Virus record (IMG/VR): IMGVR_UViG_3300029953_000113
Coordinates: 1-31,965 of that record
From: a virus
Direction: 5' to 3' (one strand)
Length of the DNA stretch: 31,965 nt
Shown: piece by piece, positions 4,817 through 27,982 of the stretch
Position numbering within the stretch: position 1 is the stretch's first letter
Layout: every line of letters begins with the position of its first letter
Program-made: the position numbers and the translations under genes
Notes under the pieces: model-generated
The model's database searches: none
The model's input: the letters and a program-made list of their open reading frames with translations, nothing else
Told to the model about the DNA's origin: nothing

Positions 4817-4882
4817 ATGACCAGAGAGTGGAAAGAGACCGCGCGGGGCATGGCTTACGCGAGGCATGGGAAAGCACTGTGA
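4817..4882 (+). CDS. Possible 21-residue leader ORF before the replication gene
   Basis: An ATG at 4817 preceded by GAGGAAATCAAGAAG opens a 21-codon frame (MTREWKETARGMAYARHGKAL). Its TGA stop at 4880-4882 overlaps GTG 4879, which is in frame with the replication protein. The GTGA junction copies the coupling seen between several genes upstream. It could be a real leader peptide that couples translation, or chance. Confidence 0.3.
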   Translation: MTREWKETARGMAYARHGKAL

Positions 4883-6216
4883 CTTCAGGGACCGAAACAT
4901 TGACGAGCCTGCGCAACGATCGCAAGGCCTGTTATTTCTGGCTGGACAACGAGGTCGTGGATTGCTACCAGCCCATCGTGGGTGCGGACGCGATCTGGGT
5001 GTACAGCCGCATAGCGCGCAACGCGCATGGAGCGTGGATTGTGTCGCCGAGGCGCCGCGATGGCGACACGCGCCTTGCGTTGCGCGAGATGGCGGAATGG
5101 TGTGGTAAGAGCGTAGATACGGTGTGGCGCTGCCTGCAGGTGCTGGAGTATGTGGGTCTGTTGCGGGGAGAGCATGGCGCAAAAAGCAAAGGCCGCTATG
5201 CGTTGGTTGATGTGAAGGACCTGGTCACGCGGGAAGGTGCGCATTACGTTTCCGGATTGGGAAGCTACCGTCTTCCGGATGAGCGCGTTGCCGAGTTGAA
5301 AGCCCAGGTGAAGGTCTTACGCGCGAAGCTGGCGCGGAAGAAGAGTGGTCAGTTGTCGGTGGTCAGCGAAGCTGCTGAATCTGTCGCTCAGAGCGACAGA
5401 TTGGAGAGCGATATTTTTTCTGCGGCTGAGGGAAAGTGCGACAGATCTGTCGCTCCGAGCGACAAATCTGTCGCACTTGGAGCACTTCCTTCTAATACAC
5501 AAGACAGCAAGACTTCAAAACAAACTACACCCCCCTTACCCCCGCAAGCGGGGGCGTGTGGTCTCGATGTGCCTGAGGAGGCATTGCATGCAAGCAAGAC
5601 GCAAGATAGCGCCGCGAGTGTGGCCGATGGACTTTGCGTGGGCGGCGATAGCGATGCGGAAGCTGCGGAAGATTTTCGAGGCACGCATGGTGCAGGAGCT
5701 CCGGGAGGAAGTTTTGGGGAACCCCTAGACAGCGCGTTCACGCCTGAGCAGCTTGCGCACTTGGACGAGCTGAGGGATGCGGGGCGAAGGGCTGATGCGG
5801 CAATGTGGGAAGGCTTCTACTGCGAGCAAAACCTCAAAGACGCCGAAGTCGCCAAGGAAGAACGCGCGAAAGCGAAACGGCTGGAGGATCTGAAAGGACT
5901 CATGCCGGACGAACCGAGCGCGGTGAAGTGGGTGATGCAGGAGTGCGACTTTGTGGACGAGGGGCGTAGGCGTGGACTGCGTGCCGTGATCGCGGCCGTG
6001 ATTGCGCAGCAATGCGTGCGGGGCAGGCCTCTCGTCGAAGTTGCGCTGGAGATGGTGCAGGCGTGGCGCGATTACGACCGGATCTTCGACTTGCTGGCAG
6101 TGCCGTACGGGCCGCTGAACTTCTTCCGCAACGGGATCTGGATTCGGCGGAATAGCTGGCGCATCGATGAGAAAAAGGCGGAGCAACGCAGGGCAGGGGT
6201 GGGGAGCGCACGATGA
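4879..6216 (+). CDS. Phage replication initiator-type protein with N-terminal winged-helix domain
   Basis: The product is 445 residues from GTG 4879; GTG 4828 is an in-frame alternative adding 17 residues. Residues about 15-110 look like the winged-helix domain of phage replication proteins: YFWLDNEVVDC, AIWVYSRIARNAHG, then an HTH in LREMAEWCGKSVDTVWRCLQVLEYVGLL. A low-complexity Ser/Lys/Asp-rich linker (about 150-270) is encoded by repeats and a GC-rich hairpin. The C-terminal 150 residues are helical. By analogy with lambda O, such proteins bind an origin that lies in their own gene, recruit the host helicase and start replication. The repeat cluster at 5378-5476 fits that model. The ATGA end overlaps the next gene. 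Confidence 0.7.
   Translation: MTSGTETLTSLRNDRKACYFWLDNEVVDCYQPIVGADAIWVYSRIARNAHGAWIVSPRRRDGDTRLALREMAEWCGKSVDTVWRCLQVLEYVGLLRGEHGAKSKGRYALVDVKDLVTREGAHYVSGLGSYRLPDERVAELKAQVKVLRAKLARKKSGQLSVVSEAAESVAQSDRLESDIFSAAEGKCDRSVAPSDKSVALGALPSNTQDSKTSKQTTPPLPPQAGACGLDVPEEALHASKTQDSAASVADGLCVGGDSDAEAAEDFRGTHGAGAPGGSFGEPLDSAFTPEQLAHLDELRDAGRRADAAMWEGFYCEQNLKDAEVAKEERAKAKRLEDLKGLMPDEPSAVKWVMQECDFVDEGRRRGLRAVIAAVIAQQCVRGRPLVEVALEMVQAWRDYDRIFDLLAVPYGPLNFFRNGIWIRRNSWRIDEKKAEQRRAGVGSAR
5344..5364 (+). repeat. Heptamer array in the replication gene, three units
   Basis: Three 7-base units (AGTGGTC, AGTTGTC, GGTGGTC) followed by AGCG. It lies in frame in the linker and encodes about SGQLSVVS. It is a GTGGTC variant of the AGGGRTY arrays elsewhere in the window. 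Confidence 0.6.
5378..5476 (+). other. Iteron-like repeat cluster, candidate replication origin
   Basis: Six copies of the 8-mer GCGACAGA (one is GCGACAAA), alternating in strand, lie at 5380, 5393, 5438, 5446, 5459 and 5467. They form nested palindromes: 5378-5402 (12-base arms around one base), 5438-5453 (perfect 16-base palindrome) and 5446-5466 (one mismatch). The two groups flank the only AT-rich patch nearby (GATATTTTTTC, 5410-5420). Iterons plus an AT-rich stretch inside an initiator gene is the lambda-type origin layout. Confidence 0.5.
5539..5554 (+). other. GC-rich perfect hairpin in the replication gene
   Basis: CCCCCGC-AA-GCGGGGG is a perfect 7-base inverted repeat in the low-complexity linker, about 60 bases after the iteron cluster and preceded by an A-rich tract. 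It could be an origin-associated structure or a mobile repeat fragment. Confidence 0.4.
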
Positions 6217-6461
6217 AACGCTTTGTGGTGATTGCGACAGCGAATCGCGGGGCGGTGGAACCGCATGAGCCGTTAGACGATGCGGGGCAGTATCTGGCGA
6301 ATTGTGCCGATGAGGCGGAGGGCCAGCGCGTGCGGGAAGTGTTGAGGCAGAGGGCGACGGCGGGTTACGGGTTTGAGCGCGATCCGCTGCCGACGTTGCA
6401 GGAAGTGGATCGAATCCGCGCGGCGCAACGCATTCGACGCGCGGAGATGGGGAGTCGCTGA
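6213..6461 (+). CDS. Small hypothetical protein
   Basis: This 82-residue protein starts in an ATGA overlap with the replication gene. It begins MKRFVVIATANRGAVEP and continues as a charged helix rich in Arg and Glu. It ends in a TGATG junction with the XRE regulator gene. No family recognised; the position suggests an accessory replication or regulation factor, which is inference. Confidence 0.55.
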   Translation: MKRFVVIATANRGAVEPHEPLDDAGQYLANCADEAEGQRVREVLRQRATAGYGFERDPLPTLQEVDRIRAAQRIRRAEMGSR

Positions 6462-22205: not shown

Positions 22206-24336
22206 TTTTTGGGTGATGAGCGCCGTGATGGCTGCGGCGAGCTCGGCAAGCGCCTGGGCGCAGGTAGCTGTGTCGCCTTTCAAGAGCCCGCATGTGACTT
22301 TCACCGATTCCAACGGCGTGTCGCTCGCTGGCGGATGTGTGTTCACCTACACGGGTGGTACGTCTACGCCACTGGCCACCTATACCGATTCGACCGGCGG
22401 GACACAGAATCCAAATCCGGTGCCGTTGGATGCGACGGGCTCGGCCAATATCTGGTTGGGGCCGTCTACTTACAAGTTCGTGATCTGGAGCACGGGCGGC
22501 ACCAACTGCGCGAGCGGAGCACTGCAATGGACCGTTGACCAGGTGCCCGGGAACATCTTCAACAACACGACGGTGACTGGGGGCACGTGGAGCGGGGGCA
22601 CCATCACGGGCGCGGCGGTAAGTGGCGGAACGATCAGCAACGCGGCGATTACGAACAGCACGATCGACTCCACGCCCATCGGCCAGACCACGCCGGCTTC
22701 CGGATCGTTCACAAGCGTGGCCAGCGCCCTGAATTCCATGACGTTCAGCTCGACGCCGGTGTTTGCGGCGGGTTCGTATGGATACTTCACGATGACGCTG
22801 ACGAACAACGTCACCTCTTCGAGCATCACCGGAGGTACGGCTGGCCAGCTCATCACCTTTAACCTGTGTCAGAACGGGACCGGGCAGACGGTGGGGGGCA
22901 TTACGACCGGGTTCACCTTTGCGTGGCCGTCCAACTATCTCAGTCCGCCTACGATTAATCCGATTCTCAGTTCCTGCACCATCGTCACTGCGTTCTACGA
23001 CGGCGCGTACTGGAACACGGTTTCGACGACGCCGCAGATTCTTTTTGGAAACTTCGATACGGTGCCCTACAGCGCGACGCCGATCTTCCCCGCGGCAAGC
23101 TACTCGAACTTCGCTATCACTTTGACCGGGGCCGTCACTTCAAGCACCCTCACTGGCGGCGTGACCGGACAAGTTGTCACGATCGATGTTTGCCAGAATG
23201 CCACTGGAACTTACACGTTCGTCTGGCCCACCAACCTGCTGCAGGTGCCAGGGGTTTCAACCAGCGCAAACACATGCACAGGGATTTCGGCGGTATACAA
23301 CGGATCGAACTGGGTGACTGTCTCCAGTTCTACCGTATCGAGTACGACACCGCTTACCGGAAACCTAGATGTGATCCCGTTCACGGCGACTCCCATTTAC
23401 TCCGCGGCTAACTATAGCGCGTTCGAGATGACGCTCTCAGGCAACGTGACCTCCAGCTCGATCAGCGGGGGGACTCCCGGACAGCTCATCTCGATTGCGC
23501 TCAGGCAGGGGTCGTCGACCACGGCCGCGCCGGCCTCCGCGCCTACCTTCTCGACCCTCACCACGGGCGGCGCGGTCCCTGCAACGACAGCCTATTACGC
23601 CAAGTGCTCCTACCTGCAGGGAACGGTGGAGTCTTTGCCCAGCGCGGAGGCTACCGAGACTACGGGATCTGGCGCGACGAACACGATTACCTGGAATTGC
23701 CCAGTGGCTACGGGTGTAACCAGCTACAAGTTCTATCTGGGAACGGGGACGGGAGCGGAGAATTACTACTTCACCACCTCCAGCGCATCGTACATTCAAA
23801 TTGGAGTCCCGAGCACGGGAACCCCCGGAATCCCGCTGACCGGCAGCATCTACACCGTTTCGTGGCCTGCAAACCTCATCAACGCTCCCATCATGTCGAA
23901 CGGAATCGGGTCAACGACCGCGCTGGACGCCTTCTATGACGGTACAAACTGGATGACGGTGGGGACCACTGGAAGTGGCTCGACCGGCGTTGTTTGCAGC
24001 GGCGGTAACTGCTATCGACAGAACCCAGATGGAAGCTACGAAGAGTGGGGGACGACGCCCACTTTCGGCGGCCAGACTGGCGGCAGTTTCTCGATGACCT
24101 TCCCGCATGCTTTCACCAATCTTGCGAGCATCACCGTAGTATTCAGCCCCAATGGGTGCGATTCCGGCGGTGGAGGTTCAGGCGCTGCTTGCGCGGCAAA
24201 CCCAGGCGGCTCCGGCAACAACATCTACGCCTGCGGCATCATGACGGAGAGCTTGACGGCCCCTACCGGATTCTATTCGTCTGCGAACACGGTGCAAACC
24301 AGCTCGTCGTGCTCCTGGCACGCGTGGGGCTACTGA
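22186..24336 (+). CDS. Tail fibre protein with signal peptide and triple repeat
   Basis: The product is 716 residues. Residues 1-26 are a Sec-type signal peptide (RRVSFWVMSAVMAAASSASAWA-Q). Residues 34-120 match the head-binding-type N-terminus of podovirus tail proteins: FTDSNGVSLAGGCVFTYTGGT, TPLATYTDSTGG, LDATGSANIWLGPSTYKFVIW. Three homologous beta repeats follow (about 185-280, 293-380 and 397-592), each with YxxFxxTLxxxVTSSxxxGGxxGQ and FxWPxNxxxxP. The third is split by an inserted FN3-like domain (about 444-552). Residues 610-716 match the gp53-like fibre tip (DGSYEEWG, FSMTFPHAF, TGF...SWHAWGY). It probably binds the host surface. Confidence 0.8.
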   Translation: MNMRRVSFWVMSAVMAAASSASAWAQVAVSPFKSPHVTFTDSNGVSLAGGCVFTYTGGTSTPLATYTDSTGGTQNPNPVPLDATGSANIWLGPSTYKFVIWSTGGTNCASGALQWTVDQVPGNIFNNTTVTGGTWSGGTITGAAVSGGTISNAAITNSTIDSTPIGQTTPASGSFTSVASALNSMTFSSTPVFAAGSYGYFTMTLTNNVTSSSITGGTAGQLITFNLCQNGTGQTVGGITTGFTFAWPSNYLSPPTINPILSSCTIVTAFYDGAYWNTVSTTPQILFGNFDTVPYSATPIFPAASYSNFAITLTGAVTSSTLTGGVTGQVVTIDVCQNATGTYTFVWPTNLLQVPGVSTSANTCTGISAVYNGSNWVTVSSSTVSSTTPLTGNLDVIPFTATPIYSAANYSAFEMTLSGNVTSSSISGGTPGQLISIALRQGSSTTAAPASAPTFSTLTTGGAVPATTAYYAKCSYLQGTVESLPSAEATETTGSGATNTITWNCPVATGVTSYKFYLGTGTGAENYYFTTSSASYIQIGVPSTGTPGIPLTGSIYTVSWPANLINAPIMSNGIGSTTALDAFYDGTNWMTVGTTGSGSTGVVCSGGNCYRQNPDGSYEEWGTTPTFGGQTGGSFSMTFPHAFTNLASITVVFSPNGCDSGGGGSGAACAANPGGSGNNIYACGIMTESLTAPTGFYSSANTVQTSSSCSWHAWGY

Positions 24337-24791
24337 TGCCTCTGATTCGGGCGATCTCTTATCGCGACATTCTTGAGGCGCCGAACGCGGCCGCGCTGCT
24401 GGACGAATACACGGCCGAGTGTTCCCTGCCGGAGCTGGGCCCGACCTGCCCGCAGTCTCACCTCTATGAGGCGATGGAACGCTCTGGCGGGCTGCAGGCC
24501 TTCGGCGTCTACGACAGTAGAACGCTCATCGGCTTTGCAAATGTGCTGAGTTGGGTAGTGCCGCACTACGGCACAAAGATAGCGAGCACCGAGAGCATCT
24601 TTCTCGCTGGGGAGTATCGCAAGAGAGGGATCGGCGCGGGGATGCTTGACTTCGTCGAACAGTACGCGAAAGACAATGCCTGCAAGGCGTTTCAATACAC
24701 TGCGCCTGTGGGCAGCCGGTTCGCGAAGATGCTTGCGATGAACGTTGGGCGATATAGGCGCACGAACAGCGTCTTTCTGAGGAGCTTATGA
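24336..24791 (+). CDS. GNAT-family acetyltransferase in the tail module
   Basis: ATG 24336 overlaps the fibre stop (TGATG). The 151-residue protein has the GNAT fold pattern: GGLQAFGVYDSRTLIGFANV, then IASTESIFLAGEYRKRGIGAGML with acetyl-CoA loop RxxGxG at 95-100. FVEQYAKDNACKAFQYTAPVGSRFAKML completes it. GNAT-like domains occur in some podovirus internal proteins, so this could modify a virion or ejection protein or be part of the particle. The next gene overlaps it by 4 bases. Confidence 0.8.
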   Translation: MPLIRAISYRDILEAPNAAALLDEYTAECSLPELGPTCPQSHLYEAMERSGGLQAFGVYDSRTLIGFANVLSWVVPHYGTKIASTESIFLAGEYRKRGIGAGMLDFVEQYAKDNACKAFQYTAPVGSRFAKMLAMNVGRYRRTNSVFLRSL

Positions 24792-26305: not shown

Positions 26306-27982
26306 ATGGCGACGATTCCGCTTCCCGCACTTCATACCGCACCTATCGCGCAACCGACAAGCGCGCTGGAGATGTACGGGCAGTTGATGGGCATCAAGAA
26401 TGCGCAGCAGGAGCAGCAGGCGCGCGCGCAGCAGATGCAGCAGCAGCAGGCGATGGCTCCGCTGCAGCAGCAGCAGGCTCAACAGACAGTGCAGAGCGGC
26501 CAGATGGATATAGAGGCGAAGCAGCGCGCCGCCAATGACCAGAAGGCTATGAGCGCGGTGATGCAGCAATGGGGCAAGGCTCCAAGCGCAGCGCCGTCCG
26601 TCGCTGCAAAGACCGGATCTATTCCCGATCCGCAAACCGGCGAGGCGCTGGGCGGCTCGGCTGCAACCGTCAATGGTCCGGCGGCCGCTGGCGTACGGCA
26701 GGGGACGTCCGCGAACCCCATGCCAAGCTATGATGACCTGGTTCCGCTGGCGATCAAGAACGGCGCATCTTTCACGGCTGTCCAGGGCCTTCAGGCTCAT
26801 ATTCTGGACATGAAAGCAAAGGCCTCCACGATAGCGAAGGATGATGCTCAGGCGGGAACAGCCAACGCTGACGCCATGAGAACCAAGAATGGCATGATCT
26901 CCGATGCCATGACCGGAGTGATGAGTCTGCCGGACGATCAGCTGCAGGTCGGCATTCTCAGAGCTGCGCAGGAGCTATATGGGAAGGGCCTCTTCGATCC
27001 GCAACACCTGCAGCAGGCGCAACAGCTTGCGCAGCTCGCTTACACCGACCCGAAGCAGGCGCGTCAACAACTGAATATTCAAAACCTGAGTCTGGGTGCG
27101 TTCTCAAAAGAACTCGAGAACCAGCAAAAGCAGCTCGCTAATCAAAAAGAGGCGGGATCGATGGATCCGCAAAGCCCCTTCTATGCGCCGTCGCCGGCGG
27201 CCGTGGCCATGGGGACAGCTCCGGGGGCTGCGCAGATTAACGCAGGAGAGGTAAAGCAGGCGGCGCGCAAGGCTGGGGCAGAGGAGTCCGCGCGAATGCC
27301 GGGAGAAATGGCCCTGGCAGCCCAAAGGCAGGCGCTCTCGCAGGGTGATCCAAATGCGGCGGCTCAGCTGTTGGTGAACGGTGACGCGACTCTATCCGAG
27401 CTGAAATCTCGCGGCGCCACGCCTGATTTTATTGAGAAATCCTTGACGGCCGCCCATAGGTTGAGTGGTGGGCAATACAACGCTCAGTCGGCAGACGCGC
27501 AGTTCAGCGTGGCCAAGTCGCCGGCAAACGTCCAGTTCTTCGGCTCGGCCAAGTCGCTCACCGATAAGGGCGGAACGCTGGATCAACTGGCGCAAGCTGC
27601 GCAAGGCATCCCCGCTCACCAACTGCAGGTGCTGAACAGCGTGGCGGACTGGCAAAAAGCGCAGACAGGCAGCGGTCCAATTGCGAAGTACGCCGCGCTT
27701 ACTCTCGGCGTTGCCGATGATTATTCCAAGGTAATGGGCGGTGGACAAGGAAGCGACGCATCGCGCCTGCAGGCGCAGGTTCTGGCCGCCGCAAAACAGA
27801 GCCCGGAGCAGCGCGCCGGGAGCATCGAGGGCATTCGGGGAGCCGTTTCCTCTCAGATGAACTCACGCATCGGAAGCAATCGGGTGCTGCAGAGGATGTA
27901 TGGGCAGAGCGGTGGGCAGCAGCCCGGGCAACAACAGAACAGTAATGACCCGTTCGCACAGTTTGGGGGAAAGGCTCACTAA
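26306..27982 (+). CDS. Large internal virion / ejection-type protein
   Basis: ATG 26306 follows AAGGAAAGAG. The 558-residue product has a very Gln-rich N-terminus (QQEQQARAQQMQQQQ, residues about 34-65), then helical Ala/Gln-rich sections with coiled-coil potential. The C-terminus (GSDASRLQAQVLAAAKQSPEQRAGSIEGIRGAVSSQMNSRIGSNRVLQRMYG) is helical. Position and composition match the second of three P22 ejection proteins (gp7, gp20, gp16). It overlaps the next start (TAATG). Confidence 0.65.
   Translation: MATIPLPALHTAPIAQPTSALEMYGQLMGIKNAQQEQQARAQQMQQQQAMAPLQQQQAQQTVQSGQMDIEAKQRAANDQKAMSAVMQQWGKAPSAAPSVAAKTGSIPDPQTGEALGGSAATVNGPAAAGVRQGTSANPMPSYDDLVPLAIKNGASFTAVQGLQAHILDMKAKASTIAKDDAQAGTANADAMRTKNGMISDAMTGVMSLPDDQLQVGILRAAQELYGKGLFDPQHLQQAQQLAQLAYTDPKQARQQLNIQNLSLGAFSKELENQQKQLANQKEAGSMDPQSPFYAPSPAAVAMGTAPGAAQINAGEVKQAARKAGAEESARMPGEMALAAQRQALSQGDPNAAAQLLVNGDATLSELKSRGATPDFIEKSLTAAHRLSGGQYNAQSADAQFSVAKSPANVQFFGSAKSLTDKGGTLDQLAQAAQGIPAHQLQVLNSVADWQKAQTGSGPIAKYAALTLGVADDYSKVMGGGQGSDASRLQAQVLAAAKQSPEQRAGSIEGIRGAVSSQMNSRIGSNRVLQRMYGQSGGQQPGQQQNSNDPFAQFGGKAH

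Follow-up and report, generated by a model that had tools for sequence, protein, structure and literature searches.

A candidate lambda-type replication origin inside the initiator gene of an uncultured P22-like phage

In bacteriophage lambda, the replication origin lies inside the initiator gene O; dimers of the initiator bind inverted-repeat iterons, and the adjoining 40 bp of AT-rich DNA opens (PMC5043065, PMC3349717). P22 and phage L carry different repeats inside their initiator genes, and the authors of that study conclude that every initiator seems to recognise its own repeats (PMC8022706). Here, we describe a repeat array inside an initiator gene of the viral contig IMGVR_UViG_3300029953_000113, a linear IMG/VR record of 31,965 bases, the whole of which was analysed and is referred to as the window. 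The array and the weak stretch of duplex beside it very probably constitute a lambda-type replication origin embedded in the coding sequence of its own initiator. In-gene origins of the lambda/P22 type are already a known kind, to which the window adds another case.

The locus resembles the lambda origin (ITN1-4 and the AT-rich region) in three respects: it lies in the initiator gene, downstream of the part that encodes the DNA-binding domain, it has about four dyads of the 6-N5-6 form, and a weak duplex follows the dyads directly. The annotated lambda iterons, inside gene O, read TCCCTC-N5-GAGGGA, and in lambda the weakest 45-mer likewise lies downstream of them. In contrast, the half-site is TGTCGC in the window and TCCCTC in lambda, the sequence similarity between the two initiators is weak, no P-type partner gene was seen in the window, and the window has a strong GC hairpin beyond its AT-rich stretch. 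Gene 18 of P22 and gene 18 of phage L resemble the present gene in that they belong to P22-like phages and contain repeats, each with its own sequence, inside the initiator gene (PMC8022706); the repeat sequences themselves, known for those phages from the paper, differ from those in the window, and no counterpart of their DnaB-type helicase (gene 12) was found in the window. Plasmid iteron origins of the RepA/RepE type also have helically phased arrays of initiator sites beside an AT-rich region (PMC5043065), whereas the sites in the window are dyads inside the gene. Among the lambda-type sequence features examined, the in-gene position, the dyads, the melting region and an iteron that follows the winged helix-turn-helix (wHTH) domain were all found, whereas the partner gene was not. 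Judged by its sequence, the system appears to work like the origins of lambda and P22/phage L. The initial annotation of this DNA had proposed the lambda O/ori layout, and the order of wHTH, iterons and melting region, together with the 6-N5-6 dyad, was found as it implied.

The portal and coat proteins encoded in the window are both P22-like, and a Terminase_3 large subunit is encoded as well; the phage is therefore P22-like. Related initiator genes are present in genomes of the class containing an Acidobacteriales metagenome-assembled genome (MAG), and the host of the phage is probably a member of the Acidobacteria.

The initiator gene, its dyad array and the weak duplex

The initiator gene occupies positions 4879-6216 on the plus strand, with a GTG start at 4879 assigned by family conservation within a frame that is open from 4828. 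According to the AlphaFold model and the family alignment, the protein comprises a wHTH domain (residues ~20-132), a helix (134-158), a disordered linker (157-284) and a helical C-terminal domain (285-440). The repeat-encoded residues fall in the linker, which is long and modelled with low confidence, and the C-terminal domain is modelled confidently, with a predicted local distance difference test score (pLDDT) of 89 when modelled alone. A fold search of the Protein Data Bank (PDB) with the whole model returned generic winged-helix matches only, and that of BFVD returned one match (E 8e-5), an uncharacterised phage protein. Matches to the PHROG 'replication initiation O-like' families (PHROG 678 and 18020) were weak and lay in the helix-turn-helix (HTH) region, with E 0.0012 for the window protein and E 4e-5 to 7e-4 for its relatives. 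No named phage relative of the window protein was present in the phage collection searched.

The initial annotation had described six copies of an 8-mer at 5378-5476. Six sites bearing the hexamer GCGACA are indeed present, at 5380 (-), 5393 (+), 5438 (+), 5446 (-), 5459 (+) and 5467 (-), but only five are exact copies of GCGACAGA, and the copy at 5459 reads GCGACAAA. Five exact copies of an 8-mer within 100 bp were not reached in any of 300 dinucleotide shuffles of the window, in which the maximum for any 8-mer was three, and elsewhere in the window this density is matched only by a CAG-type low-complexity run. Copies with one mismatch showed no excess over the whole window (34 observed, 41 expected); therefore, the signal lies in the cluster and not in the frequency. 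The nested palindromes claimed for these copies are present in the sequence, and the repeat unit is the dyad TGTCGC-N5-GCGACA, which describes the array better than the 8-mer does.

Iteron 1 (5382-5398, TGTCGC-TCAGA-GCGACA) is a perfect dyad that is kept in relatives with the same wHTH, and iteron 3 (5448-5464, TGTCGC-TCCGA-GCGACA) is also perfect. Iteron 2 (5427-5443, plus strand, TGAGGG-AAAGT-GCGACA) is half-degenerate, its right half being kept in several relatives, and iteron 4 (5469-5485, plus strand, TGTCGC-ACTTG-GAGCAC) is likewise half-degenerate, with the left half kept in relatives. We infer that iterons 2 and 4 are to be read as dyads, in the case of iteron 2 from the ~22-bp register. 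When the half-degenerate dyads are counted, the four sites are spaced by 45, 21 and 21 bp, roughly multiples of two helical turns. The two perfect dyads are 66 bp apart in the window and in some relatives, and 45 bp apart in other relatives. The array codes for residues 168-199, inside the initiator's own gene and downstream of the wHTH domain (residues 20-132), where it encodes the odd in-frame linker CDRSVAPSDKSVA that had been pointed out earlier.

In a nearest-neighbour stability scan, the least stable 45 bp of the gene were located at 5484-5528, downstream of all the copies; this stretch is 64% AT, ranks within the least stable 0.1% of the window, and is contained in the putative DNA unwinding element at 5484-5530 (64% AT). 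The initial annotation had instead taken a patch between the copies for the only AT-rich one, and this position was the sole error in an origin reading that is otherwise supported: the patch inside the array (5404-5426) is just 52% AT, and it was rejected as the unwinding element, the downstream stretch being clearly weaker. The scan covered 24 genes that carry the repeat: in 23 of them the weakest 45-mer begins between -11 and +15 bp relative to the array end, and in the remaining one, L126, the DNA that follows the array still ranks within the weakest 0.1% of the gene. The 24 genes represent several divergent groups and are not all independent, 12 of them coming from the window's own family, and the coordinates used for L114 were out of frame, which leaves the DNA scan unaffected.

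Downstream of the weak stretch, and preceded by a run of C, lies a GC hairpin (5539-5554, CCCCCGC-AA-GCGGGGG), which is perfect, as had been claimed. Most relatives with the same wHTH have a C-run and a GC hairpin at the matching place (L006, L007, L009, L011, L016, L145 and L146); the stem sequences differ and the pairing is kept. At the place after the weak stretch, L008 and L147 have no hairpin, and L003 and L044 have a weaker one nearby.

Conservation and specificity of the dyads

The dyads are kept at the same gene position in all relatives with the same wHTH, in viral and probable Acidobacteria prophage genes. Across a codon alignment of 12 members of the family, two sequences with the same residue shared its codon in 97% of comparisons at the iteron codons, compared with 57% in the wHTH and C-terminal regions, and a level as high as that of the iteron codons was not reached in any of 20,000 random draws of wHTH columns. 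In addition, several relatives translate one TGTCGC copy in another frame (NCRS instead of SVA), and the L028-type genes carry four dyads that are translated in differing frames; no named relative of the L028-type initiator was found among the phages or plasmids searched. Because the synonymous codons are conserved to this degree and the copies are translated in differing frames, selection of the repeats at the DNA level, which the odd linker had suggested in the initial annotation, is confirmed.

To assess the specificity of the dyad, viral contigs were scanned blind for neighbouring pairs of TGTCGC-N5-GCGACA dyads; this returned 41 stretches, whereas a scrambled hexamer of the same composition returned one in the same kind of scan. 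On reading of the frames and flanks, 38 of the 41 stretches lie in coding DNA directly downstream of a winged-helix domain. Paired dyads without a recognisable preceding wHTH were seen in L120 (9642-9692), L121 (10357-10406) and L129 (3393-3451). With any length from 0 to 20 allowed for the first spacer, it was exactly 5 in 34 of 41 stretches; the other seven have spacers of 10 to 16 and lie outside wHTH genes as far as they were read. The 17-mer had 60 matches in 257 Gb of bacterial and archaeal genome sequence, with about 60 expected by chance (257e9 / 4^16), and the matches almost always lacked further half-sites. The spread of the 8-mer through unrelated genes, which the initial annotation had named as evidence against an origin, is thus not seen: the repeat is clustered at a single place in the window, and the 17-mer is no commoner in bacterial and archaeal genomes than chance predicts.

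Proposed mechanism and alternative readings

In the proposed mechanism, the N-terminal wHTH domain would bind each TGTCGC-N5-GCGACA dyad as a dimer. With sites at 45, 21 and 21 bp, the bound proteins would stack on one face and the DNA would bend, and the resulting strain would open the AT-rich stretch (5484-5530) immediately next to the array. The helical domain at the C-terminus would recruit the host replicative helicase, or a loader, onto the opened strand; we infer this recruitment from the lambda and P22 models, because the domain gave no PDB match and no helicase or loader was found.

Several observations weigh against the origin. The initiator bears only a weak resemblance to known O proteins (E values of about 1e-3 to 1e-5), a PDB fold search with the C-terminal domain alone showed no solved structural relative, and no match to a DnaB-type helicase (DnaB_C), P or a loader was found in the early genes searched in the window, a contig that may be a fragment. 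Iterons 2 and 4 each have one good half-site only, and the repeats of the domain swaps described below were read by eye from ranked k-mer clusters, with no formal threshold. The cumulative GC skew, a check proposed by the initial annotation, rises steadily to about 17.5 kb with no turn at the array; as an origin marker, the skew is uninformative in the window, and it speaks neither for nor against an origin there.

An operator, through which the wHTH protein represses or tunes transcription of its own gene while the origin lies elsewhere, is an improbable account of the dyads. Many wHTH regulators bind palindromes, self-regulation is also known for plasmid initiators, and the origin activity is so far a prediction. 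However, the array is located ~500 bp inside the gene, far from the gene start, the weakest duplex of the gene follows the array in 23 of the 24 genes, which an operator would not need, and the layout is identical in lambda, where the origin function is proven (PMC5043065). It is less probable still that the dyads serve a different DNA-binding protein, such as a partition protein or the HTH_3 regulator encoded nearby at 6461, since the repeats vary with the wHTH of their own gene, and the same dyad is present in many phages directly after such a wHTH.

A linker repeat SVAxSD, selected at the protein level for a structural or interaction role, would agree with the near invariance of the SVAQSD residues in the family, but this reading is rejected because of the frozen synonymous codons and has very little probability left; the L028 group translates the same DNA repeat in different frames, and the linker is predicted to be disordered. 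Insertion of a mobile or repetitive extragenic palindromic (REP)-like repeat into the gene has the smallest probability among these readings, even though short inverted repeats are typical of REP elements: it is contradicted by the single cluster in the window, the chance-level frequency in bacterial and archaeal genomes, and the position in relatives, which is always the same one in the gene.

On the lambda-type reading, the origin of this uncultured phage group, which probably infects Acidobacteria, would be narrowed down to an interval of about 180 bp. The rule that a wHTH is followed by 6-N5-6 dyads and then by the least stable duplex in the gene could help to find origins in many metagenomic phages, and such origins could in turn supply replicons on which to build genetic tools for hosts where few are available.

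Natural domain swaps and wider occurrence of the half-site

A family-alignment search of 399 genomes of the class of the Acidobacteriales MAG gave matches in 11 genomes. For L145, L146 and L147, the wHTH is the same as in the window and the TGTCGC repeats are retained; the sizes of the contigs in which these relatives sit (510 kb, 639 kb and 6.8 Mb, respectively) suggest that they are integrated prophages, and the L145 protein is identical to that of the viral contig behind L025. L145 also has a second array downstream of the TGTCGC array, consisting of five GGATGACA copies, mostly 24 bp apart, at positions 702-786 of the initiator open reading frame (ORF).

Conversely, for L148, L149, L151, L153 and L155, the C-terminal domain alone is in common with the window protein, and other repeats follow their own wHTH, such as GGGTGACA at 21-bp steps in L155 and GACAAAA at 22-bp steps in L151. 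The repeats in L148 (CAGAAGGG) and L149 (GGCAAAA) recur at 11-bp steps, not ~22, like the 11-bp repeats reported for gene 18 of phage L. L152 and L154 share the C-terminal domain and exhibit short purine-rich repeats without clear iteron spacing. For L150, the match is N-terminal only and weak, with repeats of GAGAAACGC at 22-bp steps, and L133, also with an N-terminal match only, has repeats of GAACAAGA at 13- to 17-bp steps. Overall, the repeat sequence tends to go along with the identity of the wHTH, as expected if the wHTH reads the repeat, and in these natural domain swaps the iteron sequence appears to accompany the DNA-binding domain. The initial annotation had advised a search for the same iteron in relatives with other initiators; relatives with another wHTH have other linker repeats, and the wHTH domains found to share TGTCGC are only 12-26% identical to that of the window.

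Among named phages related to the L123 group, annotated O-like genes also carry short repeats downstream of the HTH, four to seven per gene and of a different sequence in each (Klebsiella RAH1, Morganella IME1369_02, Sphingopyxis VSN-002, Microcystis Mvi-Yong1342-1, Psychrobacter Y8A, Pectobacterium ZF40 and Vibrio R20L). The genes of three others, Salmonella SI8, Vibrio 236O40-1 and Vibrio D65 showed no repeat cluster at the threshold used.

The nearest outgroup, L025, is 42% identical to the window in the wHTH domain. Tentatively, TGTCGC with the fixed 5-bp spacer could be a widespread site that phage winged-helix initiators recognise, either retained or arrived at repeatedly among the 12-26%-identical domains. 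The new aspect may be this recurrence of one dyad across very different initiators; no description of the TGTCGC half-site was found in the PMC literature searched, which does not show that none exists.

A possible correlate of TGTCGC use is an arginine or lysine two positions past the conserved valine of the recognition helix. In a post hoc count made by eye, arginine or lysine at this position appeared to accompany GAC-containing repeats, with exceptions both ways (L112, L202 and L205 against L150, L167 and L190). Among additional HTH_36 genes from two bacterial classes, many have repeat arrays after the HTH, and exceptions to this association, again by eye, were seen both ways. The recognition-helix idea is a lead only; if the link is true, iterons would be predictable from the protein sequence.

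Elsewhere in the window, the ORF at 1493-2137, in the early region, matches phrog_3193, a family of unknown function (E 5e-39), and that at 2488-3027 matches a nucleoside triphosphate pyrophosphohydrolase family (E 1e-11). The translation of the ORF at 24045-24791 resembles, by its look, a GNAT-type acetyltransferase. A CAG/CTG-type repeat run at 26404-26471, within the ORF at 26306-27982, codes for a stretch rich in glutamine and alanine.
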